Assembly: GCA_003209165.1 (NCBI GenBank)
Contig: QCSL01000001.1
Span: forward strand, 62,001-126,000
Direction: 5' to 3'
Source: Synechococcus sp. AG-670-B23
Lineage (GTDB): Bacteria; Cyanobacteriota; Cyanobacteriia; PCC-6307; Cyanobiaceae
DNA length: 64,000 nucleotides
The notes under the pieces are model-generated. The model made no database searches. It saw nothing but the letters and a program-made list of their open reading frames with translations, and was not told the origin of the DNA. Shown piece after piece: positions 7,050 through 45,374 of the stretch. The number at the start of each line of letters is the position of its first letter. Position 1 is the first letter of the stretch. The position numbers were made by a program, and so were the translations under genes.

Positions 7050-7802
7050 ATGCAGATCCGGGCTGAGCTGTGTCACGTCGACACCCTTCGATGCATCGTG
7101 CGTGTTGAGGCCTGGCACGACGGTGCTTTGCAAGGCAGCGCCCTTGGTGAAGCCTCGACGGTAGAAGTCGCTGAGGAAAGGGCATTGCAGCGCCTGAACA
7201 AAAGGCTTCAGCCCCGTCCACACCAACAGCCGCAACGGTCGTCTGTTTGTCCTGAAGCCAAGGTCATTGATCAGGACGCGCAGCCCGCGTCCGTAGAGCG
7301 GCCAAGAAGGCTTGATCAGGTTGAGCTTTCTTCCGCCCCAATCATCCCTGCCACCCAGCAAGTCACCGTCATCGCGCCGGACAATGCCCCTTCGGAAACC
7401 CCTACGGATCCTGAAGATTGGAGCGACGAGCTGACTGCTATCGACATGGAAATCAGACGCATCGGTTGGTCTCGAGAGCAGGAGCAGGAGTACTTGACGC
7501 GAGCTTTTGGTTTTGGGAGCCGTCACAAACTCACGCGCTACGCTGATCTGGTGGCCTATCTGCGTCAACTGAAGTTAATTCAAACCAACGATGATGCGTC
7601 CACGGCACCTGCTCCAATCCGTCGTGGTGATCTTCTTCAGCAGGGAGATGCGATGTTGAAACAGCTGGGCTGGAACTCAGATCAAGCTCGGGCTTTTCTC
7701 CAACAACATCTTGGTTCGACAAGCCGTCAACAGCTCAGTGATGAACAGTTGCTGCAGTTCAACATGCTTCTTGAGGAGCAGCAAATGAACGCGGCGACCT
7801 GA
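7050..7802 (+). CDS. Hypothetical protein with two copies of a helical repeat
   Basis: A 250-residue soluble protein I cannot assign. The N-terminal 50 residues (RVEAWHDGALQGSALGEAST then EVAEERALQRLNKRL) resemble in outline a double-stranded-RNA-binding-like alpha/beta unit. After a Gln/Pro-rich linker come two related helical units: GWSREQEQEYLTRAFGFGSR starting at residue 139 and GWNSDQARAFLQQHLGSTSR starting at 207, each followed by a short helix rich in Leu. The second unit runs to the C-terminus. The architecture suggests nucleic-acid or protein binding, which is inference. The gene is followed by a gene-poor region. Confidence 0.75.
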   Translation: MQIRAELCHVDTLRCIVRVEAWHDGALQGSALGEASTVEVAEERALQRLNKRLQPRPHQQPQRSSVCPEAKVIDQDAQPASVERPRRLDQVELSSAPIIPATQQVTVIAPDNAPSETPTDPEDWSDELTAIDMEIRRIGWSREQEQEYLTRAFGFGSRHKLTRYADLVAYLRQLKLIQTNDDASTAPAPIRRGDLLQQGDAMLKQLGWNSDQARAFLQQHLGSTSRQQLSDEQLLQFNMLLEEQQMNAAT

Positions 7803-8328
7803 CTGTTTTTCGCCAAAAACCTGTAGTAACCAAACCTAATACGATTATGCAGCCTTAGCCAGTTTGCGTGCAGCTATGGCTGCCTTATTCAGGCGTAACC
7901 TTCGTAACTGATGCAACCAAGAGCCTTAATGTGTAAATTCATCTCTGCCTCCTGTCTAAGAAAAACCACAGGAGAATACTTGCAACCAATAACGAAGTAA
8001 TCCTTTCCCTTTCAATCCAGTCTGGTTTCCAGATTCTCCAAGAAATAATGACTAGGATGTCGGCAGACAAATAACAACCAAGGGACTTAAAGTCAAGGTT
8101 CATTTTACGCATAAATTCTCCTCAGAGCCAACCAAATCTTTGTTAAAATATCTTTCCTCAAAAGCAAGAGAAATCGGCCGTGCAGGGGGCCTTATTGGAA
8201 AAACTAGTTACCATTGGTGTCGCTAATTGAACTCTTTTTTTCCTCCAAGAGATCTGAGCGTAATCGGTCGTCTAGAAAAAATTAGGGAGTCCAAAACTCA
8301 AATATTTTGAAGAAATTAGCTCGTACGG
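7803..8328. other. Intergenic region with a possible decayed mini-gene
   Basis: About 520 A+T-richer bases without a convincing gene. On the minus strand, 7845-7942 starts with a good ribosome site (AGGAGG) and reads MNLHIKALGCISYEGYA before a stop. In the next frame LNKAAIAARKLAKAA follows and then stops. The two halves together look like one small basic protein broken by a frameshift, but I cannot confirm a family. Nothing else is supported in this stretch. Confidence 0.3.
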
Positions 8329-8523
8329 ATGGACAATCAAAGAGAGACCGCAAGTTTCCGCTACGGTGCCATCAAGATAGACCTTCTTAATGAGGCGCCA
8401 CAACTCACTGTTGATATTTGGAATGAAGAGGAAGAACCGCCAGCAGTAAAACCGTGGCAGATGCTCTTAATGATCAAAATCAGAAGTCTTTGCCTTCAAC
8501 TGCCAGCGCTCAAGACGTCTTAA
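8329..8523 (+). CDS. Small hypothetical ORF, 64 aa
   Basis: Not recognised. The first 42 residues read like a real protein (FRYGAIKIDLLNEAPQLTVD, then an acidic patch), but no strong ribosome site precedes the ATG. The last 19 codons overlap, on the opposite strand, the end of another small ORF. Another frame downstream (VADALNDQNQKSLPSTASAQ) is equally protein-like, so the gene may be frameshifted near base 8450. I consider it a possible gene in a region of decay. Confidence 0.35.
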   Translation: MDNQRETASFRYGAIKIDLLNEAPQLTVDIWNEEEEPPAVKPWQMLLMIKIRSLCLQLPALKTS

Positions 8524-8631
8524 TTCCATAATCTCCAACCGTCTTCTGTTGGTTTCCACCTCGGCTTCACGTGCCAAATGTTCAAGTTGAGCATTTGCAC
8601 GTTTTTGGTCTTGTGAAGATACAAAAGACAT
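8467..8631 (-). CDS. Small helical hypothetical protein, 54 aa
   Basis: Starting from the inner Met (MSFVSSQDQKRANAQLEHLA), the product is almost entirely charged and helical, with heptad-like Leu spacing (LEHLAREAEVETNRRRLEIM), so a short coiled coil is likely. It has no Cys and no membrane segment. It is convergent and overlapping with the small plus-strand ORF, and both cannot be fully functional without sharing bases. No family is recognised. Confidence 0.4.
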   Translation of the reverse strand: MSFVSSQDQKRANAQLEHLAREAEVETNRRRLEIMELRRLERWQLKAKTSDFDH

Positions 8632-8734
8632 TGGGATTACCAATTCCATGCGTAGAAGCTAAAAACTTCGAGAAATTGAGGCGTGAAAGCGTTACCCATC
8701 TACACTTATTCATGTATTTAAGTAACGGCATTTG

Positions 8735-8876
8735 ATGCGAACGGCTGCAGCCGCCTCAGAGGCTTTCAAATGTGCGAAGCAACGTGATTGAAGCTGAGCA
8801 TTGCCAGCAGCTATAGGCGATCAGAGCGCATCTGGACAACCTTGATGACGGAGAAGCGCAAGTGATCGACTTTTAG
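8735..8876 (+). pseudogene. Possible remnant of a small gene (frameshift and stop)
   Basis: An ATG opens MRTAAAASEAFKCAKQR. After a one-base frame change the text continues NVIEAEHCQQL, a stop, then AIRAHLDNLDDGEAQVIDF and a stop. The pieces read like one amphipathic small protein with a frameshift and one nonsense codon. The opposite strand also has an open stretch here (MPRPEKSLGLGENDYVDAYC onwards), so the assignment is tentative. No family is recognised. Confidence 0.25.
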
Positions 8877-9114: not shown

Positions 9115-9258
9115 TCAGCCGTCGTCCTCCTTAGATCTCGGGTCGTTTTCCTTATATCTCGGCAGATCAGTGGGCTGAGCCAGCACGTAAACGACTGCCG
9201 CAGAGATTACGACGGTGACGATGATGAGAGCGGTGATGGCTGCGGAATAGTCCGTCAC
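9115..9258 (-). CDS. Single-helix membrane mini-protein, 47 aa
   Basis: GTG start overlapping the previous stop as GTGA, so translation is coupled to the 59-residue gene upstream. The protein has a short polar N-terminus (MTDYSAA), one membrane helix (ITALIIVTVVISAAVVYVLA) and a charged tail ending KENDPRSKEDDG. No family can be named. The coupling, the clean hydrophobic/hydrophilic layout and the second mini-protein beside it make it more credible than a random ORF of this length. Confidence 0.6.
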   Translation of the reverse strand: MTDYSAAITALIIVTVVISAAVVYVLAQPTDLPRYKENDPRSKEDDG

Positions 9259-9434
9259 GCGTCGACCTCAGCCTTCTCGTCAGCTTTGTGATGAGCCTCT
9301 ACGAAGGTTCCATCAGCTGACTTGCTGCGAGGGCAGTCACCAGCGTTGGAGCCACCAACAAAGACAGCCAAAAACATGATCGCGACGATCACGCTTCCAC
9401 CCAAATAGGCCAGGTTTGAAAGTTTCATACGCAT
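9255..9434 (-). CDS. Single-helix membrane mini-protein, 59 aa
   Basis: Reads MRMKLSNLAYLGGSVIVAIM then FLAVFVGG, one membrane helix, followed by a soluble tail with a single Cys (GDCPRSKSADGTFVEAHHK). It starts five bases after the end of the decayed gene at 9439-9722 on the same strand and overlaps the next mini-gene by four bases. The three probably formed one operon. Function unknown. The C-terminal face is rich in Asp, Glu, Lys and His. Confidence 0.6.
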   Translation of the reverse strand: MRMKLSNLAYLGGSVIVAIMFLAVFVGGSNAGDCPRSKSADGTFVEAHHKADEKAEVDA

Positions 9435-9438
9435 GAAC

Positions 9439-9722
9439 CTAACGGCGTTTCCAGACCCTGGGGACGATGTGTGTCACCAGGTCAGCGTTGACCCACGTAA
9501 TGATTCAGGTATCGACATATGTCGCCTGGAGGAAGAGGGAATCTTTGAGGTTGCGGCGCTGCAAATAACGTGAATCACGTCAGCCATGCGCCAGTCTGCA
9601 TCTGTGTGGGTGATGACCACGGCCAATCCTTCCTTGAGGGGTAAGAAAAATCGGATCCGACTGGGGCGCAGCAACAGCACTCGCGTGATCAACCGACTTA
9701 GCCCTTGTAGCCCTTGAGCCAA
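9439..9722 (-). pseudogene. Decayed conserved cyanobacterial gene (frameshift plus stop)
   Basis: The first part is coherent: MAQGLQGLSRLITRVLLLRP, SRIRFFLPLKEGLAVVITHT, DADWRMADVIHV. The frame then goes out after about residue 62. In another minus-strand frame the protein resumes as FLQATYVDT, a TGA stop, then IITWVNADLVTHIVPRVWKR and a normal stop. Joined, this is the layout of a roughly 95-residue protein (RIRFFLPLK, DADWRMADV, VDT..ITWVNADLV) that I believe is conserved in picocyanobacteria, though I cannot name the family. One indel and one nonsense codon make it a pseudogene unless there are sequencing errors. Confidence 0.6.
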
Positions 9723-27369: not shown

Positions 27370-27804
27370 ATGGTGTTCAACCGCAACAAGGGCTTTTTCC
27401 TCACCCTGGATGACGCCGCCGCTCCCGCCAGCCTCGATCTGCCTCAGAAGGAGGCTCCTGCAACCGAGAAAACGTCCGCCAAAGACCCTGTAGCAACAGA
27501 GGCAGCTGTTATCCCAGCCGTCGTTGCACCCTCCGAGCCCTCAGCAGTTTCCAAGCCTTCAGCAACTAAGGCCGTTGCAGAACCCAAGGCTGACACCAGC
27601 TCTCAGCCATCAGCCGCACTCACTACTGCAGAAGCCATTGCCGCTGAATTGGATGCAGCTGAGGCAGCCCGCCCGGCAGTGACCTACTCCACCTTTGCTC
27701 CCAGCAACCTGATACCCGGTGGCGGACTGCGCCAGCGCAGCCGTCGGCCTGGAGCTGCGCTGAAATCCTTTCGAGGCATCGCTCAGGATCTTTTCAAGAG
27801 CTGA
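27370..27804 (+). CDS. Hypothetical protein with Ala/Pro-rich linker, 144 aa
   Basis: A short N-terminal head (VFNRNKGFFLTLDDAAAPAS) is joined by about 70 residues of Ala, Pro, Ser and Thr to a compact C-terminal segment (TYSTFAPSNLIPGGGLRQRS then RRPGAALKSFRGIAQDLFKS). The long disordered linker between two ordered ends is the striking feature. The tail looks conserved in character. No known domain is recognised. It overlaps the convergent rsmE gene by 11 bases and is divergent from DUF92. Confidence 0.65.
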   Translation: MVFNRNKGFFLTLDDAAAPASLDLPQKEAPATEKTSAKDPVATEAAVIPAVVAPSEPSAVSKPSATKAVAEPKADTSSQPSAALTTAEAIAAELDAAEAARPAVTYSTFAPSNLIPGGGLRQRSRRPGAALKSFRGIAQDLFKS

Positions 27805-28567
27805 CCAGGCCGTCGCGCCAACGCACCAGCTCCACTGCGCCAGCCACGGCTGCCGTTGAACTGCGCAGGATGGTTGATCCCATCTTCACAGGCTGGACCC
27901 CTGCTTCGGCAAACAGGCTCAACTCTGCTGAGGTCCATCCCCCCTCAGGACCGATCAGCAACCAGGTGGGCTGAATAGGGTCCCGCTGTTGGCGCAAACA
28001 TTGATCCAATGCTGGCGCTGCCGTTTCGCGGGTGACCCCAACCAGACGCAGCCCCTCTTCCGCTCCGATCCATTGGGATAGACCGTTTACCTCGTGCAGC
28101 TGCGGCATCCACAACCTCTCGCACTGCTCCACTGCTTCACGAATGATCGAGGTCCAGCGCTCCGGTCGATTGTCGGCCTGGGGAACACAGCGCTGGCAGC
28201 GGAGGGGCTGAATCCGGTCAATGCCGAGCTCACAGGCCATCCGGATTACCTCATCCATCCCCCGCCGCATCAAGGCCACGGCCAAGCCCAGCTTCGGTTG
28301 CGACAAGGGCTCGATCTTTTGCGCTGCCGTGTGGAGTGCGAGCATCTGCGATTCCACCAGGGTTGCAACCGTGAGGCGGCCGCAACCATCGATCACATCC
28401 ACCTGCTCGCCACAGCGCAAACGCAAAACCCTCTGCAGGTAGTGCTGCTCGTCCTTGTTGAGCAGAACCAATCCACCCTCCTCCAGGCGATCCGGCGTCA
28501 GGAGCAAGCGCCGGCGTTCAGCCACCGGCAGGGAAAACGCTGTCGGGATGGTCTTCATCAGAGACAT
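27794..28567 (-). CDS. rsmE: 16S rRNA (uracil-1498 N3)-methyltransferase RsmE
   Basis: SPOUT-class enzyme that methylates U1498 of 16S rRNA in the decoding region. The family signs are the N-terminal PUA-like part (RLLLTPDRLEEGGLVLLNKD then EQHYLQRVLRLRCGEQVDVI) and the knot motif LLIGPEGGWTSAELSLFAEA followed by LGSTILR-like KMGSTILRSSTAAV. 257 residues. Met4 (MKTIPTAFSL) is an alternative start. It is the last core gene before the genomic island. Confidence 0.93.
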   Translation of the reverse strand: MSLMKTIPTAFSLPVAERRRLLLTPDRLEEGGLVLLNKDEQHYLQRVLRLRCGEQVDVIDGCGRLTVATLVESQMLALHTAAQKIEPLSQPKLGLAVALMRRGMDEVIRMACELGIDRIQPLRCQRCVPQADNRPERWTSIIREAVEQCERLWMPQLHEVNGLSQWIGAEEGLRLVGVTRETAAPALDQCLRQQRDPIQPTWLLIGPEGGWTSAELSLFAEAGVQPVKMGSTILRSSTAAVAGAVELVRWRDGLVSS

Positions 28568-28632: not shown

Positions 28633-30069
28633 ATGCCCAAAATCCACTCCAAGACGAAAGTTCTCAGCGGTAGAGCAGAGGTCATTGCCTATGAGCGAGA
28701 CCCATCCACGTTCTACTACCGAGAACTGATTACAGGAACAAAGAGCTACAGAACTAGAAAACTCACAGCTTCAACTGCTGAAGCAGCACAGCTAGAGGCC
28801 GTCGATGCCTACTCAGCACTGCGTGTAGCACCAATAGAAGCTCATACAGCAGCTGCGACAACACCATCCACAACAACCTCGGCAAGAGGAGTCAAGAAGG
28901 TCATCCAGGACTATCTGAAGCACCTCAGCTCACAGGTAAGAGCAAAACAGATAAGTGATGGGACTTATGACGTAGCAGAAGCTGTTATCTACAAACTTGT
29001 CTTACCTTTCTTTGAAGAGAACAGGATTACAAAGACTTCAGACATCCACATAGATACGTTCCAGAACTATGTGGTCTGGAGACAAAGCACAGCGAAGGGT
29101 AGACACGGTGTCTTGAAGAATGGCGAAGGTGTGACTGCCTTGACCCTGAGCAAGGAACTACAACAGATAAAGAAATGGGTAAGTCACTACTTACTTCCGC
29201 ACAAACTAATCAAAGCAGAGATAGCAACGGATAAAAGATTTATTGTCTATCCAAGGGTAAGAGCAGAGGACTTACTAGCTAACCCTGCTATTAACGCTGA
29301 TGACTGGGAAAATATAATTAACTATGTCCGAAAAGAATGGCGAGGTGATGCAGCCAAATACAGGAAAGGTTATTGGTCTAGAACTATGTTCTGGAACTGG
29401 ATGCTTGTGTCTAAGAACACAGGAGCTAGACCTGAGGAGCTACTGAAGCTCAGATGGAAAGATATTGAGTATGAAGACATAGGCAGGTTCAGCAAGACAG
29501 CACAAAAGGAACGCATCCAAGAGCTGATGAGCAAGAACATTCCTATTGATGAAGACAACCTTGATGAGCTAGGTCAAGTCAGCAATGAGGTTGCACACGT
29601 AGTTCTTAGGTCGTCCAAGACTGGAGCACCAAGGATAAGCAGCTGTAACTGTGTCTATGTCTTTGAGAGGTGGTTAAAGTTCCAACAGAACTGGTCAAAG
29701 GAGAATGGATACACCTATGAGGTCAGTCCGAACAGCTTGGTCTGGGAATGTCCTTACAACCAAGGGAAGACATTGACTTACAGCCGCTACAAGCAACTGT
29801 GGATAGAGATTAGAGACGTGATTGGTAAGAAGCTCAAAGGTCACGTGTTCAGTGATGAGCCTTACACCATCTATTCAATGCGTAGCACCTTCATTGAGGA
29901 CAGCTTGCTAGCAGGCAAGGACATCTTCTTGATTGCTAAGGCAGCAGGACACGATGTGAAGACCTTGATGAAACACTATGAACGTATTGACCCACGAAAG
30001 AGAAGCAGAGAGATGACGAGCTATGAGATGGGTGCTAAACCAAAGACTGTTAGAAGATCAGCTATATAA
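28633..30069 (+). CDS. Tyrosine recombinase (phage-type integrase)
   Basis: Site-specific recombinase of 478 residues. An N-terminal arm-binding part and a core-binding helical domain (IQDYLKHLSSQVRAKQISDG) precede the catalytic domain. Active-site residues visible: Arg266 in NTGARPEELLKLRWKDIE, Arg417 in IYSMRSTFIEDSL, His440 in AKAAGHDVKTLMKHY, and the nucleophile Tyr449 in HYERID. The His of the usual H-x-x-R is replaced. It is complete and stands at the edge of the A+T-rich island, reading inward, as integrases of mobile islands do. Codon use is unlike rsmE beside it. Confidence 0.93.
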   Translation: MPKIHSKTKVLSGRAEVIAYERDPSTFYYRELITGTKSYRTRKLTASTAEAAQLEAVDAYSALRVAPIEAHTAAATTPSTTTSARGVKKVIQDYLKHLSSQVRAKQISDGTYDVAEAVIYKLVLPFFEENRITKTSDIHIDTFQNYVVWRQSTAKGRHGVLKNGEGVTALTLSKELQQIKKWVSHYLLPHKLIKAEIATDKRFIVYPRVRAEDLLANPAINADDWENIINYVRKEWRGDAAKYRKGYWSRTMFWNWMLVSKNTGARPEELLKLRWKDIEYEDIGRFSKTAQKERIQELMSKNIPIDEDNLDELGQVSNEVAHVVLRSSKTGAPRISSCNCVYVFERWLKFQQNWSKENGYTYEVSPNSLVWECPYNQGKTLTYSRYKQLWIEIRDVIGKKLKGHVFSDEPYTIYSMRSTFIEDSLLAGKDIFLIAKAAGHDVKTLMKHYERIDPRKRSREMTSYEMGAKPKTVRRSAI

Positions 30070-30773: not shown

Positions 30774-31562
30774 ATGCCTAAAAAACTAACCAAAGATCAA
30801 AAGTACAACCGAAAACGTAGAAAAGATGGGAATAAAGATTTCCGACGTGTACCTAAGGAAGGTTTCGATGGAGTGAGAGTTACGAGGAAGCAAATAACCT
30901 TCTATCTCTCTCATGAAGCGTCAGAGCGTTTGCAACAGATGGCAGACGATGCAGGAATATTTAAGTGGGAGATGGCAAGTCGGATGATTCTCAAAGGTTT
31001 ACCTGGCATTCTTTCCTCGGGTTATGCATCTCCTCGAAATCCAGAGGCAATTAATCGATATGAGTGGAATGTTCTATACCTTGAACCTGTATTCAAAAGG
31101 ATTCACTATCGCAGTGGCAAGGCGGATAAGCGAGTGACTATTGATGTCACAAGCACAGCTTGGAACAAAATTCATTGCCACAGCACAGCAACGGAACGCT
31201 CTATGAGTCAGATATTCCAATCACTGTGTCTGAACTACAAACCACTTACTAAGGAGCAAAGAGAAATAAGCAAGCTTGCTAAGGAGGAGTATCTAAGGAA
31301 TCAGGAAGTTCCTCATGAAGAGAAGACAACACGTTACTACAAACCATATGAAGCGCCATCTAAATTCCTAGACGTTGGTTCTGACATTATTCACGTCAAA
31401 GGTATTCCAGTTGAATATTGGGATGATGCTGAATTTGAGGAGTATTCCGAGTTGATGGAGAAGAAGTTTAATAAACTCAATCGGCGTTGGGATGAGTGGC
31501 AGAAAATCAATGATGAACTATTCGGGAAACTCCAGTCATCTACTGAGGAAATAGAGGAATAA
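30774..31562 (+). CDS. Protein with two ribbon-helix-helix-like motifs
   Basis: 262 residues. After a very basic N-terminus (KKLTKDQKYNRKRRKDGNKD), residues 39-76 (KQITFYLSHEASERLQQMAD then KWEMASRMILKGL) have the strand-helix-helix layout of CopG/Arc DNA-binding proteins. Residues 119-156 (KRVTIDVTSTAWNKIHCHST then SMSQIFQSLCLNY) repeat that pattern. Two such motifs in one chain could make an intramolecular DNA-binding unit. The acidic C-terminal third (EFEEYSELMEKKFNKLNRRW) looks helical. It is the most regulator-like gene in the island. The RHH assignment is by eye. Confidence 0.6.
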   Translation: MPKKLTKDQKYNRKRRKDGNKDFRRVPKEGFDGVRVTRKQITFYLSHEASERLQQMADDAGIFKWEMASRMILKGLPGILSSGYASPRNPEAINRYEWNVLYLEPVFKRIHYRSGKADKRVTIDVTSTAWNKIHCHSTATERSMSQIFQSLCLNYKPLTKEQREISKLAKEEYLRNQEVPHEEKTTRYYKPYEAPSKFLDVGSDIIHVKGIPVEYWDDAEFEEYSELMEKKFNKLNRRWDEWQKINDELFGKLQSSTEEIEE

Positions 31563-32558: not shown

Positions 32559-32890
32559 CTTCATCGCTGGCATTGCGCCAGCACTTGACTGAGTTGATAC
32601 AGATAACAGTTTGGGTGGTACTTAGTTATCTCAATGGTTTGATTCCATTGGCAGTCTTTTGCCTTCAGGATTGCTCGTTCTGTTGGTGAATATAAGAGCA
32701 TATTTCTAGAAATTACCACTTACTAATGTCAGTTGACTGATGCAATGTCACGACAGCAAGCAGGCTTAGTCCTGCCACTAATGGGATTGTAGGAACCACT
32801 TGTAAACCGGAAGGGTGGACCGAGTTCTACATAGTGTCGTAGTTCAACTCCACGAGGTCCCACAACTAAACATATAAATCAAAGAACATA
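32559..32890. other. Intergenic region with hairpins
   Basis: About 330 bases, no gene. It holds GCAGG-CCTGC at 32759-32775 and the larger hairpin listed separately. The stretch directly precedes the acidic 153-residue gene, so it may be a long 5' leader. Confidence 0.4.
32815..32863 (+). ncRNA. Strong multi-part hairpin, tRNA T-arm-like segment
   Basis: GTGGACC pairs with GGTCCCAC (one bulged C), inside it GAGTT pairs with AACTC, and inside that CTAC with GTAG. The 3' half also contains GTAGTTCAACTCCAC, which looks like a tRNA T-arm, but a complete cloverleaf cannot be built upstream. It ends 27 bases before the ATG of the next gene. Candidate leader RNA or decayed tRNA. No family is named. 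Confidence 0.4.
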
Positions 32891-33352
32891 ATGACTATCC
32901 ACTATGAAGGTCATCGTCACGGGATGACCATAAACCCTCCTATCCGTGATGAAGCAACAGGTGAGATCATTGAAGGAAGTGAACAGGTTGTAGATACCAG
33001 GATTGCTAACTGGAATCACGAACCTAATGAATATGACCCTGAATTAGAGAATGAAGCCATCAATGAAGACGAAGACCACCCTGACTATGTCTCCGGAGAG
33101 GTCCGAATGGCTGATACTCAGCAAGACGTACTTACTGCTGAAGAGCACTCCTTTGACGAGTCACTGGCAGCTTCCATATCTTCTGTTGACCTGGGTACTA
33201 CACCAGCTGACATCACAGTACAGCATCTCGTCACCCAGTATTACCTCGGAAACATCTCTAGGGACGAAGCATTTGAAGAAGCAATCTCTAGCGGCATCTC
33301 ACCCGAGTCACTTATGCGGTCCTACTGGAACCTTAAAAAACATTTTGAATAA
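32891..33352 (+). CDS. Acidic island hypothetical protein, 153 aa
   Basis: Very acidic throughout (EYDPELENEAINEDEDHPDY), with a more ordered C-terminal helical part (ITVQHLVTQYYLGNISRDEA then FEEAISSGISPESLMRSYWN). Such acidity is typical of DNA-mimic or virion-scaffold-type proteins, but nothing specific is recognised. It is followed by four more small genes on the same strand with short spacing. Confidence 0.6.
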   Translation: MTIHYEGHRHGMTINPPIRDEATGEIIEGSEQVVDTRIANWNHEPNEYDPELENEAINEDEDHPDYVSGEVRMADTQQDVLTAEEHSFDESLAASISSVDLGTTPADITVQHLVTQYYLGNISRDEAFEEAISSGISPESLMRSYWNLKKHFE

Positions 33353-33392
33353 ATACCTGTAGATACTTAACCTCTCAAACTACAAAATAACC

Positions 33393-33671
33393 ATGACACA
33401 GAAACTACACATCCCTATTAAGAAGCAAGACGACGTCAAAGGCTCATCTACAGGTTCAGGAATGGTCACAGCAGTTACCTGGAACCCTGATGTTGGTCAT
33501 CAGCAAGCCAAAGACATTGCTCGTGCTAAGCAGCGTGCCTTTGAAGAAATGATGGAAGCTGAACGCAAAGCCAATGACCCGCATGAAAAAAGGCTCTCTC
33601 TTCTTGAGAACCGTCTAGAGATTATTGAGAACAAGATGGATGAACTGATTGAACTCTATGGACAGAAGTGA
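33393..33671 (+). CDS. Island hypothetical protein with coiled coil, 92 aa
   Basis: N-terminal unstructured part (KLHIPIKKQDDVKGSSTGSG) followed by one long charged helix (AKDIARAKQRAFEEMMEAER, then EKRLSLLENRLEIIENKMDE LIELYG) with clear heptads, so a coiled coil is probable. The stop codon overlaps the next start by one base (TGATG), indicating coupled translation. Confidence 0.6.
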   Translation: MTQKLHIPIKKQDDVKGSSTGSGMVTAVTWNPDVGHQQAKDIARAKQRAFEEMMEAERKANDPHEKRLSLLENRLEIIENKMDELIELYGQK

Positions 33672-33832
33672 TGCCTAGGAACTCTGACTTTGAATATGAA
33701 GGTCTGAAAGTAGACCACGCTAATAACTGGTCAGCTAGGGACTATCACAACCGCACACAGTGCATACATCAGGACGGACACCAGACACCCTCTGAAGCGC
33801 CTGAGAAGGCTCGCATTAAGCCACAAGGGTAG
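33671..33832 (+). CDS. Island mini-protein, 53 aa
   Basis: Reads MPRNSDFEYEGLKVDHANNW, then SARDYHNRTQCIHQDGHQTP and a short basic tail. Its ATG shares a base with the previous stop, which is the best evidence that it is translated. Polar, with several His and Asn residues, no membrane segment. A third frame downstream (RQTNLYDHQKRQAELQNAAQ) is also open for about 40 codons but has no start. Confidence 0.5.
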   Translation: MPRNSDFEYEGLKVDHANNWSARDYHNRTQCIHQDGHQTPSEAPEKARIKPQG

Positions 33833-33966
33833 GCAATGCTGGACGACAAACCAACCTCTACGACCATCAGAAGCGCCAAGCTGAACTACAGAACGCCGCT
33901 CAAGAAGACTGGAGGTCAAGAGGTCTTACTAATAACAAAATCATTGATAACTAAACCACAGAACAA

Positions 33967-34479
33967 ATGAACCTCATTACAAACAGATATAACCAAAAAT
34001 CACCTACTGTCATCACAAGTAACGGTCTTTCTATCTCTACACCTATCTACCTAGGTCTTACCAACGACCAAGCAAAACAAATACTCAATGCATTTCGTTC
34101 AATCGTTGCAAAACAACGTCGTGAACTTGGTTATGTAGACACTCCTAGGTCTGTAGGTCAACTCTCCGTAGAAACAAAGACAACACCTCCTACAACACCT
34201 GCTGAAGATGAACTGGGTATGTCTGAAGAGTCCCTGAGATTTGCTTTGTTTGGTCGCAATGGAACTCCTGAACGACTCGTCCTCAAGCTCTGCCGCATTA
34301 CTGGTGTCCATATGACTACCAGGACTGAACTTGAACAAGTCTTCAGTCTTTGGCTAGACGAATGGTATCCAACTGATGAAAAATCAACAACTCAACCAAT
34401 TAGTAAACCAAGTCAAGAAGCAAAATCAACAAGAGCAACTAAAGCAAAAGCAAGTGCTGTTGTCGAAGCTCAGGCTTAA
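33967..34479 (+). CDS. Island hypothetical protein, 170 aa
   Basis: The first 55 residues (TVITSNGLSISTPIYLGLTN then DQAKQILNAFRSIVAKQRRE) and the middle helical part (EESLRFALFGRNGTPERLVL then LKLCRITGVHMTTRTELEQV) look like a winged-helix or helix-turn-helix-type fold, but this is tentative. The C-terminus is a long Lys/Ala/Thr-rich tail. The last 100 bases overlap a second frame (next entry). Confidence 0.6.
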   Translation: MNLITNRYNQKSPTVITSNGLSISTPIYLGLTNDQAKQILNAFRSIVAKQRRELGYVDTPRSVGQLSVETKTTPPTTPAEDELGMSEESLRFALFGRNGTPERLVLKLCRITGVHMTTRTELEQVFSLWLDEWYPTDEKSTTQPISKPSQEAKSTRATKAKASAVVEAQA

Positions 34480-34633
34480 CTGGTTTGAACAACTTAAATC
34501 TCAATACGATTCTATCTCTAATGCTTCTCAAAAACTAGGGATATAGCGTTCTTCTCTTTACAAGTGGAATAACTGTAAAGCGCCTATTCCTCTACACCAT
34601 CTAGAGACACTCGTTAATGCAGTCAGCAAATGA
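34376..34633 (+). pseudogene. Helix-turn-helix ORF interrupted by an amber codon
   Basis: In a different frame from the gene above, an ATG opens a Lys/Gln-rich head (MKNQQLNQLVNQVKKQNQQE), then LRLNWFEQLKSQYDSISNAS and QKLGI, followed by TAG at 34544-34546. The same frame goes straight on with RSSLYKWNNCKAPIPLHHLE, TLVNAVSK and TGA. The text across the stop reads as a Cro/CI-like helix-turn-helix (S-I-S-N-A-S-Q-K-L-G-I-[stop]-R-S-S-L-Y-K-W). Either the stop is a mutation or it is read through. Confidence 0.55.
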
Positions 34634-34747
34634 CCATCCTATCACTGCGAAACCAGCTGAAAATAATCGTTATGCGAACTTGTCTTTTCCCTTACTTAGA
34701 TAATTACAGTCACCCTTCTGATTTCTTAGAGCTATGAGATGTGTTCT

Positions 34748-34768
34748 GAGAGGCCTTTGTAAGGCTCT
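34748..34768. terminator. Compact hairpin before the secreted-protein gene
   Basis: AGA-GGCCTT (with one bulged G) pairs with AAGGC-TCT around a three-base loop. It follows the broken helix-turn-helix frame by about 115 bases. No T-run. Contains GAGAGGC, the complement of the element in the hairpin after the integrase. Confidence 0.4.
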
Positions 34769-34825
34769 GTATTGAACGATAAAGGTGTCTTGGATACAAT
34801 CCCCAGAAGGTATGTTGTCGTCTTC

Positions 34826-35026
34826 ATGAGCTACAAACTGGTGTGGACTGTTATTGCTACCTTAGGTGTGCTCACTCAGGTTCCTGGGATGTTAGAAGCA
34901 AACTCTTTCAATTCTTGTATGAGTAATAAAATCAGTAGCGAGGAAGGCAACGCAGTGCGCAATGAAAGAGTCAAACGTGACATTCAAATGTATGCTCATA
35001 GCTTTTGTAATGGCGGATACCCATAA
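34826..35026 (+). CDS. Small secreted protein, 66 aa
   Basis: Starts MSYKLVWTVIATLGVLTQVP, a plausible signal peptide, followed by a mature part with two Cys (NSFNSCMSNKISSEEGNA and AHSFCNGGYP at the end), which could form a disulfide in the periplasm. A TTG start upstream would add 18 residues but hides the signal sequence. The C-terminal FCNGGYP seems characteristic of small picocyanobacterial exported proteins, though I cannot cite a family. Confidence 0.5.
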   Translation: MSYKLVWTVIATLGVLTQVPGMLEANSFNSCMSNKISSEEGNAVRNERVKRDIQMYAHSFCNGGYP

Positions 35027-35032
35027 AAAATC

Positions 35033-35057
35033 ACAAAAATCTGTCAACCCTATTATC
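35033..35057 (+). repeat. Left copy of a 25-bp direct repeat flanking the PsaL-like gene
   Basis: Matches the copy at 35887-35911 in 24 of 25 positions, sharing TCAACCCTATTATC and an A-rich 5' part. The similarity weakens but continues for about ten A-rich bases upstream. The repeat starts seven bases after the stop of the secreted-protein gene. Confidence 0.75.
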
Positions 35058-35338
35058 TTTGCTTTGTTAGCAGCGACGTAGTTATGGCGCCACAACAAAA
35101 AATCTTGGAGGAACACTTAGCATGATTAAACTAAGGGATTTAACCAGCCAAGGAGCCAAATTTTACATGCTGATAAAACAAAAGTGCGCAATAATTTAAG
35201 AGGATTAATTGATCATAATGACCCTTATTGCGTAGCAAATGAAATGTTGCTTATTGATAAAAATGTTCTGCATTTGTGCTTTTTGCAAAGGAGCCGATAC
35301 CTTTAGAGCTCATAATAAAATAACTTACTAGTTAAATA
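35058..35338. other. Intergenic DNA between the direct repeat and the PsaL-like gene
   Basis: About 280 A+T-rich bases; an ATG at 35122 opens only 25 codons (MIKLRDLTSQGAKFYMLIKQ). No other gene seen. It probably carries the promoter of the PsaL-like gene, but no clear -35/-10 pair stands out. Confidence 0.35.
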
Positions 35339-35842
35339 ATGGCAGAAAATAAAGAATTGCTCTCGATAGTGAAGCCTTTCAACGATCCTTGTGCAGGTGA
35401 TTTGATAACGCCGGTTAATAGCAATATTGCGATCAAGTCGATTGTCAATGCACTTCCGATTTACCGAAAAGGAATTTCTATCAGAGCGCGTGGACTCCAG
35501 CTTGGCGCAGCATTTGGCTTTGTCTTATACGGCCCATTTACAATACTTGGGCCAATGCGTAACTCTGAATATTCAGAAATGATCGGACTCTTTTCTACTG
35601 TTGGTGGTATAACTATTCTTGCTACACTTTTTTATCTATACGGTCAAGCTGGAGGTAATTTTTATAAGCCGCCAGCCAATCCTACTGTTTCTAATCCACC
35701 AGAAGATTTATTTAGTCATGGAAGCTGGTCTGAATTTCAAAATTATTTCTGGTTAGGCGGACTATTAGGAAGTGTAGTTGCATGGTTTACATATACAAAT
35801 GAATTGGTGATCCAGCTAACCCGAATTAGCTTCGGCGCTTAG
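35339..35842 (+). CDS. Divergent photosystem I subunit XI (PsaL-like)
   Basis: 167 residues, the length of PsaL, the photosystem I subunit that joins monomers into trimers or tetramers. The recognisable blocks are IVKPFNDPCAGDLITPVNSN, NALPIYRKGISIRARGLQLG, YGPFTILGPMRNSEYSE and a last hydrophobic pair before the C-terminus, with two or three membrane helices. Ordinary PsaL has RGLExGxAHGY, whose Glu and His bind chlorophyll. Here Gln54 and Phe59 replace them (RGLQLGAAFGF). A 25-residue insertion follows the second helix. It sits in an integrase island between direct repeats, far from a psaI partner, so it is a second, transferred copy. Confidence 0.75.
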   Translation: MAENKELLSIVKPFNDPCAGDLITPVNSNIAIKSIVNALPIYRKGISIRARGLQLGAAFGFVLYGPFTILGPMRNSEYSEMIGLFSTVGGITILATLFYLYGQAGGNFYKPPANPTVSNPPEDLFSHGSWSEFQNYFWLGGLLGSVVAWFTYTNELVIQLTRISFGA

Positions 35843-35886
35843 ATAATTATTCTAGTGCGTATTTGTTAAAGAGTGATAAAAAAATG

Positions 35887-35911
35887 ACAAAAATCTTTCA
35901 ACCCTATTATC
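35887..35911 (+). repeat. Right copy of the 25-bp direct repeat
   Basis: Same as the left copy except for one base (T for G in the middle), again with an A-rich lead-in. It begins 44 bases after the PsaL-like stop. The two copies are 854 bases apart and enclose only that gene. Confidence 0.75.
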
Positions 35912-35941
35912 ATTAGAGCAGGAACGTGATTCGCCCCGTAT

Positions 35942-36196
35942 GGGTAGGTCTGATTCTCTGAAATAACGAGTGCTGCCTACCCTCATTATTGAGAATGACT
36001 GCTGGTCCAACTGTTTGTCTAACTGACAGGCAAGCTATAACTGGGTTTTTCCAGTCCTATGGAGACTGGATATTGCATTTAGACGCAGTTGCAGGGTCGA
36101 ACAGGCTCAACACCGCTATCACCTGCCGCTAATGGAGCAGAGGTGTAGCCGGACCAGACAGACGCTGATGTCACATACCTTTCTCAGGCATCTGTC
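35942..36196 (+). ncRNA. Candidate structured RNA region
   Basis: Four consecutive hairpins in a gene-free stretch: GGGTAGG-CCTACCC (35942-35982), CCAGTC-GACTGG (36051-36069), CACCT-AGGTG with an inner GC pair (about 36120-36145), and GACAGA-TCTGTC (36157-36196). They lie in a row on the same strand behind the PsaL-like gene. A series this regular is unusual for plain spacer DNA. No known RNA family is recognised. Confidence 0.4.
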
Positions 36197-36248
36197 GGGG
36201 TTTCCCTTTAACATTAACCACAGAACTATCAACTTGAACTAATTAGAA

Positions 36249-36425
36249 ATGAATTACTACTACAAGCCACAAGTAAAAAACAAAAATGGTGCAGCAACAG
36301 TGGACTACAAGTCACTGACTCAGCTTGCACTAGCCACGCGAGCCGCTGATCAGTAAAGTCTATTAGGTGCTAACCAATATGTGAATGATGCACTCGATGA
36401 AGATGGCGGCAAATGTGTATTATTA
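36249..36425 (+). pseudogene. Small ORF interrupted by a TAA
   Basis: ATG opens MNYYYKPQVKNKNGAATVDY, KSLTQLALATRAADQ, then TAA at codon 36. The same frame continues SLLGANQYVNDALDEDGGKC, VY and a second stop. The text on both sides is coherent, as in the interrupted helix-turn-helix frame 1.7 kb upstream. Function unknown. It may be expressed as the 35-residue form. Confidence 0.4.
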
Positions 36426-36441
36426 ATAACTAATTAATAAA

Positions 36442-36687
36442 TTAGGTTGCTTGCAAAGACTCAACTGTATTGCTTAATTCACCAATATCTCTCAAGCCTT
36501 CAACAGAGAACCAAGGAGAGTTCTCCCAGCTAAAACCTTCACCCATCGTGGAATCTGGAGCGGTGATGTACCAATGACAGGCAGTGTCAGGAACATCAAC
36601 GGCACACTTGCTCCAATCGGCCTCCCATTGTGGAACTTGAACCCACATCAGGGCAACAAACATCAAAGAGAAAATAGATTTCATCAT
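36442..36687 (-). CDS. Small secreted hypothetical protein, 81 aa
   Basis: A short signal-like start (MMKSIFSLMFVALMWVQVPQ) followed by a soluble mature part with two Cys (WSKCAVDVPDTACHWYITAP) and Trp-rich turns (FSWENSPWFSVEGLRD). The start overlaps the stop of the upstream membrane mini-gene by four bases. This pair looks like ordinary picocyanobacterial cell-envelope proteins and may already be native DNA rather than island DNA. Confidence 0.65.
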   Translation of the reverse strand: MMKSIFSLMFVALMWVQVPQWEADWSKCAVDVPDTACHWYITAPDSTMGEGFSWENSPWFSVEGLRDIGELSNTVESLQAT

Positions 36688-36881
36688 TTCTGATAAAGCT
36701 CCTCAAGCTTTTCACGACTGAAGTTGGCGTAGAGAACTTCTTCGCCTGGTTGGGGCGCTTCGGGATGGCGCTTGGTTGGCTTGTCCCAGCTTGTGTTGCG
36801 GATATTTGCCCACATCATTGCGAAAGCACCTCCTGCTATCACTGCGAAAAACAGGAAGTAGAGCGCTGCGAACCAGCCGTT
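36684..36881 (-). CDS. Single-helix membrane protein, 65 aa
   Basis: From the inner ATG: MNGWFAALYFLFFAVIAGGA then FAMMWANIRNTSWDK and a soluble, Pro-rich tail ending NFSREKLEELYQK. The first in-frame Met further upstream would add a Cys/Pro-rich leader that looks non-coding. The stop overlaps the start of the small secreted protein (ATGA), so the two form one unit. Confidence 0.65.
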   Translation of the reverse strand, partial: NGWFAALYFLFFAVIAGGAFAMMWANIRNTSWDKPTKRHPEAPQPGEEVLYANFSREKLEELYQK

Positions 36882-37438
36882 CATATTCGTATACGTTGCT
36901 TTACATTCATTAATATACACTACTACGTGGCTTTCCGGACTAAGCAGCCAAGGGTCGCCCGGCCACAGTGACTTTGGAGGAGCTGAACTACAAGGTTGAC
37001 CTTTCAAATTGGTTCCTCATCACCAATGAGGACTTTGAGGAGGTCACCTGATGGACAAATGCTTCAACAACGCTTCTCAGAGTGTGAGCCGAGTTCAGGC
37101 ACCCATCATCTCGAACAACTCCTTGTAGCAAGCACAGACTTCCTCATCGGTGAAGGCAGGCTGCATATTGAATTCGACGTCTGAACTATCTGCGGTTTTC
37201 CCTTAACCACTTCCACAGACAGCCTGCGCCCCATAAACAAATGAGTGTCAGGCCAACAGGGTGATCCTGCCAGCCGTAAAGGCAGATCACCCGAGCCAAG
37301 ACTGCCAACTCTCCAAGGCATCTCGTCTCACTCCCACCACTAGCTACGGATCATGAATCGCGACTGCACCGACCACCACAAGATTGATGGTCGGATTTGT
37401 CTAAGCCTTGTCCGACTTATGTCTAACTACTGTAATAG
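36882..37438. other. Right end of island: spacer with very small frames
   Basis: About 560 bases with only tiny candidates: a plus-strand GTG frame of 27 codons at 36968-37051 (VTLEELNYKVDLSNWFLITN) and a minus-strand ATG frame of 23 codons at 37095-37166 (MQPAFTDEEVCACYKELFEM). Both read like truncated protein ends, not full genes. A strong hairpin is listed separately. The island's right boundary probably lies here. Confidence 0.35.
37260..37291. repeat. Inverted repeat near island right end
   Basis: GGTGAT pairs with ATCACC and, after one bulged C, CTGCC with GGCAG around the nine-base loop AGCCGTAAA: an 11-bp stem. No T-run. It could be a recombination or regulatory element. Confidence 0.5.
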
Positions 37439-37891
37439 CTAAGAACCCTGTCCTGGAAAAATGGCATCAGGATGGTCTTCGACCGACCAATTTTCATTGA
37501 CACCACCGACGACAAGCTCCTCGATCTGAACCACGTCGGAATCCAGTTGACGCAAGGCATTAATCAAGACATCGATGGCGACACCATCCGACGTGCCGAG
37601 ATCCACCCAGCAACGTCCCCAGTCGTTCTGGTATTCCAATTGCCCCATGTTGTGCATCAGGGCGGGCATCGCCGACTCAGCCCCATCGTTCTCGTAGGCC
37701 ATCCAACTGAGATCGGAGCCTGCGTCATGAACCTGCAGGTTTTCTGCGTTGAACCCGCCCAAACGCCCGATCACATACCAGCTGTCTAAGACACCATCTA
37801 TGTAATTCCGCTCCCCCTGGCTGGGGGGTTCCGAGAAACGGATCCACAACCAGCAATTGAAGGGATCGACTTCACGAAAACGAATGTCCAT
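37439..37891 (-). CDS. DUF3531 family protein
   Basis: 150 residues starting MDIRFREVDPFNCWLWIRFS. The run VLDSWYVIGRLGGFNAENLQ agrees with my memory of DUF3531, a family of cyanobacteria and plastids with no settled function. The end is acidic. It follows the island and may originally have stood next to rsmE on the same strand. The gene is divergent from the ABC ATPase, with a 41-base gap. Confidence 0.75.
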   Translation of the reverse strand: MDIRFREVDPFNCWLWIRFSEPPSQGERNYIDGVLDSWYVIGRLGGFNAENLQVHDAGSDLSWMAYENDGAESAMPALMHNMGQLEYQNDWGRCWVDLGTSDGVAIDVLINALRQLDSDVVQIEELVVGGVNENWSVEDHPDAIFPGQGS

Positions 37892-45316: not shown

Positions 45317-45374
45317 GCTGGGATCACACCCCGATACAGTTGTTAGGTGTTCTGCGGGGCACCTGACAACCTCT

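Follow-up and report, generated by a model that had tools for sequence, protein, structure and literature searches.

The window, that is, the whole stretch of 64,000 nucleotides analysed here, contains an 8.9-kb integrative element in which a complete gene for a divergent PsaL is found (35339–35842, plus strand). This gene, psaL-Q, runs from an ATG start to a TAG stop and codes for a paralog of 167 amino acids with a glutamine, Gln54, at the site of a conserved glutamate; the PsaL Pfam family (PF02605) matches its residues 10–154 with 137.6 bits, the cut-off being 25.

The G+C content of the window is 0.37–0.50 between 28.5 and 37.5 kb versus 0.55–0.62 outside. An 11-bp attachment core, GGATGGTCTTC, located by a repeat search and by comparison with the empty site, stands at each end of the element on the plus strand (28546–28556 and 37470–37480), and the empty site is continuous in six relatives. 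The two host genes that flank the element are an rsmE-like gene (27794–28567) and a DUF3531 gene (37439–37891), both on the minus strand; they are adjacent in six relatives, and 8.9 kb apart in the source genome (G000). The locus thus has the three marks by which an integrative element is recognised: a tyrosine recombinase, a flanking core repeat and an empty site in relatives. An earlier note, made from the letters alone, had described a complete divergent psaL in an A+T-rich integrase island, which is what the drop in G+C and the recombinase bear out.

The recombinase (integrase) has 478 amino acids (28633–30069, plus strand) and matches phrog_1 (E=1.5e-15); its match to Phage_int_SAM_3 is slightly below the cut-off. 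It is followed by an open reading frame of 262 amino acids (30774–31562, plus strand) with a weak match to ribbon-helix-helix or Arc-like proteins (E of about 0.003–0.05), and then by a backbone module which is also found, with 89% DNA identity, in an element of another genome, G216 (32757–35060, plus strand; reading frames of 153, 92, 170 and 84 amino acids and one copy of the repeat described below). The backbone resumes on the far side of psaL-Q (35879–36364, plus strand, 85% identical to G216). The elements of G216 and of the window appear to be mosaics that exchange integrases. Two minus-strand reading frames, of 81 and 107 amino acids, occupy positions 36442–37007; the former matches phrog_1187 (E=3.3e-48) and is also related to phrog_14182, a family labelled esterase.

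The 854-bp unit and its repeats

Within the element, psaL-Q is enclosed by two direct 36-nt repeats on the plus strand (35025–35060 and 35879–35914), which are 33/36 identical, when 0.19 matches are expected by chance, and whose spacing from repeat to repeat is 854 bp. The leader of this unit (35061–35338, plus strand) has no recognisable promoter or Fur box, and a scan for promoters and terminators gave nothing above chance. The unit is nested inside the integrase element, and natural empty sites are found for both layers. In G216, the repeat occurs just once in this backbone, from which psaL is missing. Because both repeats of the window align to the same 36 bases of G216 (locus L092, 10002–10037), the 854-bp unit was gained in G000, or lost in G216, precisely at the 36-nt site. 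As for the integrase of the G216 element (L092, 8005–9483), it differs from that of the window (28.5% identity) and lies at the opposite end of the common backbone.

The exact repeat pattern is absent from the collections of viral and genome contigs. Two copies with three mismatches are present in other genomes of the genus, both inside islands. Besides the repeats of the window and that of G216, a further copy occurs in G147, where a comM-like gene is interrupted by an island that is unrelated in other respects. Since another copy is present in this unrelated island, the 36-nt repeat may be a recombination site, which is what its distribution suggests. In G147 (locus L093, approximately 7690–8540), the gene of the comM-like ATPase is cut after the residues LFLDE by the A+T-rich island, and the repeat is about 0.8 kb inside.

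The element resembles the tycheposons and other integrase islands of picocyanobacteria in that it is small and A+T-rich, carries an integrase and accessory cargo, and has a precise empty site. Unlike tycheposons, it is inserted at the junction of rsmE and DUF3531, with an 11-bp core, and not at a tRNA gene; the sole tRNA gene of the window is at 45374, 8 kb from the element.

PsaL-Q beside the native PsaL

The source genome has, in addition, an ordinary psaL, which stands on contig C7 and is directly preceded by a psaI-like reading frame, as the earlier note had expected of a second psaL; the assembly of this genome amounts to 2.27 Mb in 100 contigs and is 88% complete. The native gene is retained alongside psaL-Q in G000, G186, G273, G291 and G302, the carriers whose assemblies are sufficiently complete to reveal it; G186 and G273 are complete genomes, and the assemblies of G000, G285, G297 and G304 are incomplete.

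The best score of PsaL-Q against the NCBIfam equivalogs of ordinary PsaL is 174.6 bits, for a cut-off of 316. Because it scores well under these cut-offs, PsaL-Q is a divergent relative that is not classed as an orthodox PsaL. It belongs to the same family as the PsaL encoded at the psaI–psaL locus of marine Synechococcus, with which it has about 50% identity, the same helix motifs and a phenylalanine in place of histidine at the second ligand site. It differs from it by the glutamine that replaces the glutamate, by its loop between the second and third helices, which reads YGQ..G.FY.P and then PTV throughout the clade of PsaL-Q, and by its C-terminus: the GVWSVG tail of native PsaL is absent in 8/8 PsaL-Q sequences. 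Moreover, psaL-Q is found in A+T-rich islands with no recognisable psaI alongside, in contrast to ordinary psaL. The blocks NALPIYRKGIS and YGPFTILGPMR, which had been said to be kept, are both present, and so are YGPF, NPP..LF and FWLGG, which are common to ordinary PsaL.

In the solved structures of photosystem I (PSI), the glutamate and the histidine of the RGLExGxAH motif ligate chlorophyll. The nearest solved chain to PsaL-Q is 6kif_L (E=1.6e-37), and in the alignment with it Gln54 falls on the conserved glutamate and Phe59 on the conserved histidine. Gln is present at the glutamate site in 8/8 PsaL-Q, versus Glu in all of the 57 other PsaL of the alignment, which were drawn from the genus, the family and the class. 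The equivalent of Phe59, conversely, is found in 14/14 native PsaL of the genus and in 9/24 of the PsaL examined in the family, and relatives of the freshwater type have a histidine there. With respect to RGLExGxAH, PsaL-Q therefore has Gln, which is restricted to its clade, and Phe, which is also native in the genus; the Glu and the His are typical of PsaL without being obligatory, as the native PsaL of the genus lacks this His. The change from His to Phe is ancestral in marine picocyanobacteria, and the loss of the histidine was discarded as a special feature of PsaL-Q.

The two replacements reported in the earlier note are thus as described, and only that of the glutamate is unusual. The idea that the chlorophyll-ligand motif has been lost is not supported, since the phenylalanine is ancestral and the side chain of glutamine can also ligate the magnesium of chlorophyll. 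A single-sequence AlphaFold model of PsaL-Q (mean pLDDT 47.8) was too poor for use.

Distribution, ancestry and selection

PsaL-Q is encoded in 8 of the 34 sampled genomes of the genus: G000, G297, G285 and G304 (the last three with 69% identity to the protein of G000), and G302, G291, G186 and G273 (57–64%). A class-wide search of 390 genomes gave no PsaL-Q outside the genus, the best match outside the clade scoring 220 bits versus 315, and a GTDB-wide protein scan with the single PsaL-Q sequence as the query gave no matches. When PsaL was searched family-wide (300 genomes), most of the genomes outside the genus had a single match; the additional ones in G003, G027 and G097 are fragments, either short or at the end of a contig, and G199 also gave an extra match. 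The PsaL-like pieces of G003 (L054) and G027 (L053), two other picocyanobacterial genomes, have 35 amino acids and lie just downstream of psaL. In the open-access literature, we found no work that names a second psaL of marine Synechococcus.

In a maximum-likelihood tree, the PsaL-Q sequences form one clade (support 100/100), which agrees with the divergence from ordinary PsaL of the genus that had been claimed, and this clade nests in a group (99/96) to which the native PsaL of the genus also belong, along with those of one sister genus. Because the clade nests inside the picocyanobacterial PsaL group, PsaL-Q is an old duplicate of picocyanobacterial psaL, rather than a phage gene or an import from distant cyanobacteria. 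Its stem is long (0.89 changes per site), so that its exact sister is uncertain.

This bears on the proposal, made in the earlier note, that PsaL-Q is a phage-derived decoy, or more generally a viral photosystem gene on the remnant of an integrated phage. The element has an integrase and a few reading frames that match PHROG families (phrog_495, phrog_1187), and it resembles the PSI cassettes of marine cyanophages in that photosystem I genes are carried by mobile DNA. The carriers of psaL-Q are cellular islands, however, with a tyrosine recombinase here, and no virus with psaL was found: psaL is absent from 50,697 phage records, whichever of the PsaL queries is used, and from IMG/VR in pattern scans with PsaL-Q, the PsaL-Q alignment and native PsaL, which is in line with the earlier remark that psaL would be unusual in cyanophages. 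The integrase has no match in the phage records by tblastn, and neither structural phage genes nor other psa genes are recognised in the element. Since the tree also roots this conserved clade in Synechococcus PsaL, we rejected a phage origin and regard the decoy as extremely improbable. A core photosystem subunit can move on cellular mobile elements, and not on phages alone.

The selection acting on the gene is relevant to another explanation, according to which psaL-Q is a functionless duplicate that decays while hitch-hiking in islands. The copy of G302 does contain ambiguous letters, and the long stem would fit with decay. On the contrary, the NG86 dN/dS ratios of close psaL-Q pairs are about 0.1 (approximately 0.08 for L034 compared to L035 or L055, 0.11 for L036 compared to L038, and 0.02–0.06 for pairs of native psaL), the reading frames of those members that were read are intact, and Gln54 is invariant, like many other columns, across eight genomes and at least four sites. 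We consider that decay is very unlikely. Because dN/dS is this low in close pairs, the gene is under purifying selection that maintains the function of the protein.

Neighbouring genes and possible function

psaL-Q is present in A+T-rich islands at no fewer than four sites. G297, G285 and G304 have it in one common island (the contig of G304 is short), G186 and G273 have it in another (G+C 0.36–0.47 versus about 0.6 outside), and its surroundings in G291 and G302 are also A+T-rich and differ again. Both types of common island contain an extra long-chain flavodoxin, a plant-type [2Fe-2S] ferredoxin and a DoxX-family protein, as established by family searches run on the copies of G186, and in these five genomes the distance from psaL-Q to the extra flavodoxin and ferredoxin is 2–13 kb. 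No iron genes are recognised near psaL-Q in G000, G291 and G302; G000 has a flavodoxin cluster on contig C66, without psaL.

Across the genus, psaL-Q occurs in 8/20 genomes that have flavodoxin and in 0/14 of those that do not (Fisher p=0.011, shared ancestry being ignored), and in 7/13 genomes with two flavodoxin matches versus 1/21 of the others (p=0.002, ignoring shared ancestry here too). Genes of the isiA type are found in 6/8 carriers, and the assemblies of the other two are 79% and 53% complete. It has been described that isiA, isiB and a specific ferredoxin vary among strains of marine Synechococcus (PMC2441476).

PsaL determines whether PSI is a monomer, a trimer or a tetramer. Beyond the identity and the mobility of PsaL-Q, which the preceding sections establish, we infer a role under low iron: PsaL-Q would be an alternative isoform, carried as accessory cargo by islands, that replaces native PsaL when iron is scarce and alters PSI oligomers or their antenna. 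This is our best explanation, to which we give an even chance. A picocyanobacterial psaL was duplicated, and PsaL-Q would since have circulated in marine Synechococcus as cargo of genomic islands. It would most likely be expressed when iron is limiting, along with the flavodoxin and ferredoxin linked to it, and part of PSI would then contain it in the seat of native PsaL. As PsaL-Q lacks the native C-terminal tail and has a changed loop and a changed chlorophyll site, PSI oligomerisation would then be lowered or altered and pigment coupling on the PsaL side modified, as would be fitting for PSI that is monomeric or decorated with IsiA. Of the ideas put forward in the earlier note, that of altered oligomers under stress is the best, and it is now supported indirectly by the linked flavodoxin and ferredoxin, the lost tail and the purifying selection. 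Several observations weigh against the iron role: the search for Fur boxes described below gave no signal, the flavodoxin cluster of G000 is on another contig than psaL-Q, G291 and G302 likewise show no recognisable iron genes nearby, and the association with flavodoxin depends on ancestry.

Several published systems bear on this scheme. The C-terminal region of PsaL has been linked to the stability of trimers and tetramers (PMC11354412). In the monomeric PSI–IsiA complex of Anabaena, the PsaL-like domain of IsiA2 replaces PsaL (PMC11354412, PMC12808642). The IsiA–PsaL fusions (IsiA2 of Anabaena, All4002; CBPV; Chro_2988) likewise provide a second PsaL-type domain, tied in published work to iron stress and monomeric PSI; unlike them, PsaL-Q is a free-standing protein of 167 amino acids without the N-terminal six-helix CP43/IsiA antenna domain, and isiA is elsewhere in the genome. 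Far-red PsaL isoforms accompany an altered oligomeric state of PSI (PMC8827656). PsaL2 of the FaRLiP response, like PsaL-Q, is a paralog kept alongside the native protein and thought to alter the oligomeric state, whereas PsaL-Q is of different, picocyanobacterial origin and no psaA2/psaB2/psaI2/psaF2 cluster is recognised near its gene (10–20 kb around seven relatives, and the island of the window).

A second possibility is that PsaL-Q enters PSI in answer to another signal, such as light, oxidative stress or temperature, and that flavodoxin and ferredoxin adjoin it since islands collect accessory genes. It would account for the several island sites at which iron genes are lacking (G000, G291, G302), and the DNA that precedes psaL-Q, isiA and the flavodoxins shows no Fur-box-like sites above those in shuffled sequences; a small reading frame near psaL-Q in G186, read by eye, is also HLIP-like. 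The statistical association with flavodoxin, and the recurrence of the flavodoxin and ferredoxin neighbourhood in two differing types of island, argue against it, and we find it rather doubtful. Among the small reading frames that adjoin psaL-Q (L072 of G186, 8667–8828 and 9220–9405; L075 of G273, 9353–9550), one resembles a high-light-inducible protein (HLIP) and another codes for a short protein with one helix, which is conserved in both G186 and G273; neither has a Pfam match.

It may also be that PsaL-Q works outside the PsaL seat, where it would cap IsiA or PSI assembly intermediates, or serve them as an adaptor, and block trimer contacts without replacing PsaL. The long stem and the lost tail are compatible with such a role, and for the fusion Chro_2988 it has been proposed that trimer contacts are blocked by the PsaL domain (PMC8827656). 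The ordinary motifs that PsaL-Q keeps (YGPF, NPP..LF, FWLGG) make this unlikely.

We return to the isoform that would replace native PsaL under low iron. In a more specific version, psaL-Q would be a single-gene, site-specifically mobile PSI cassette, whose iron-stress isoform re-tools oligomerisation and antenna coupling and which islands exchange by means of a dedicated 36-nt recombination site; we put this forward tentatively, as a possibility that falls clearly short of even. If it is true, a mobile iron-stress PsaL cassette would be a third route to an altered PSI architecture, beside the IsiA–PsaL fusions and FaRLiP. The limitation of marine Synechococcus by iron is important for the productivity of the ocean, and a PsaL isoform that is conserved, patchily distributed and recognisable by a diagnostic residue provides a gene marker, and a direct way to learn whether these cyanobacteria swap a core PSI subunit where iron is low.

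Last, we note two regions of the source genome on other contigs. The flavodoxin cluster of contig C66 (L078, 4066–8160) has several small conserved reading frames in common with the psaL-Q islands of G297, G285 and G304. Contig C35 (L079) has an isiA-type gene, a second flavodoxin and a [2Fe-2S] ferredoxin within about 14 kb, together with a reading frame that resembles an iron-binding periplasmic protein, and we read it as an iron-response region.
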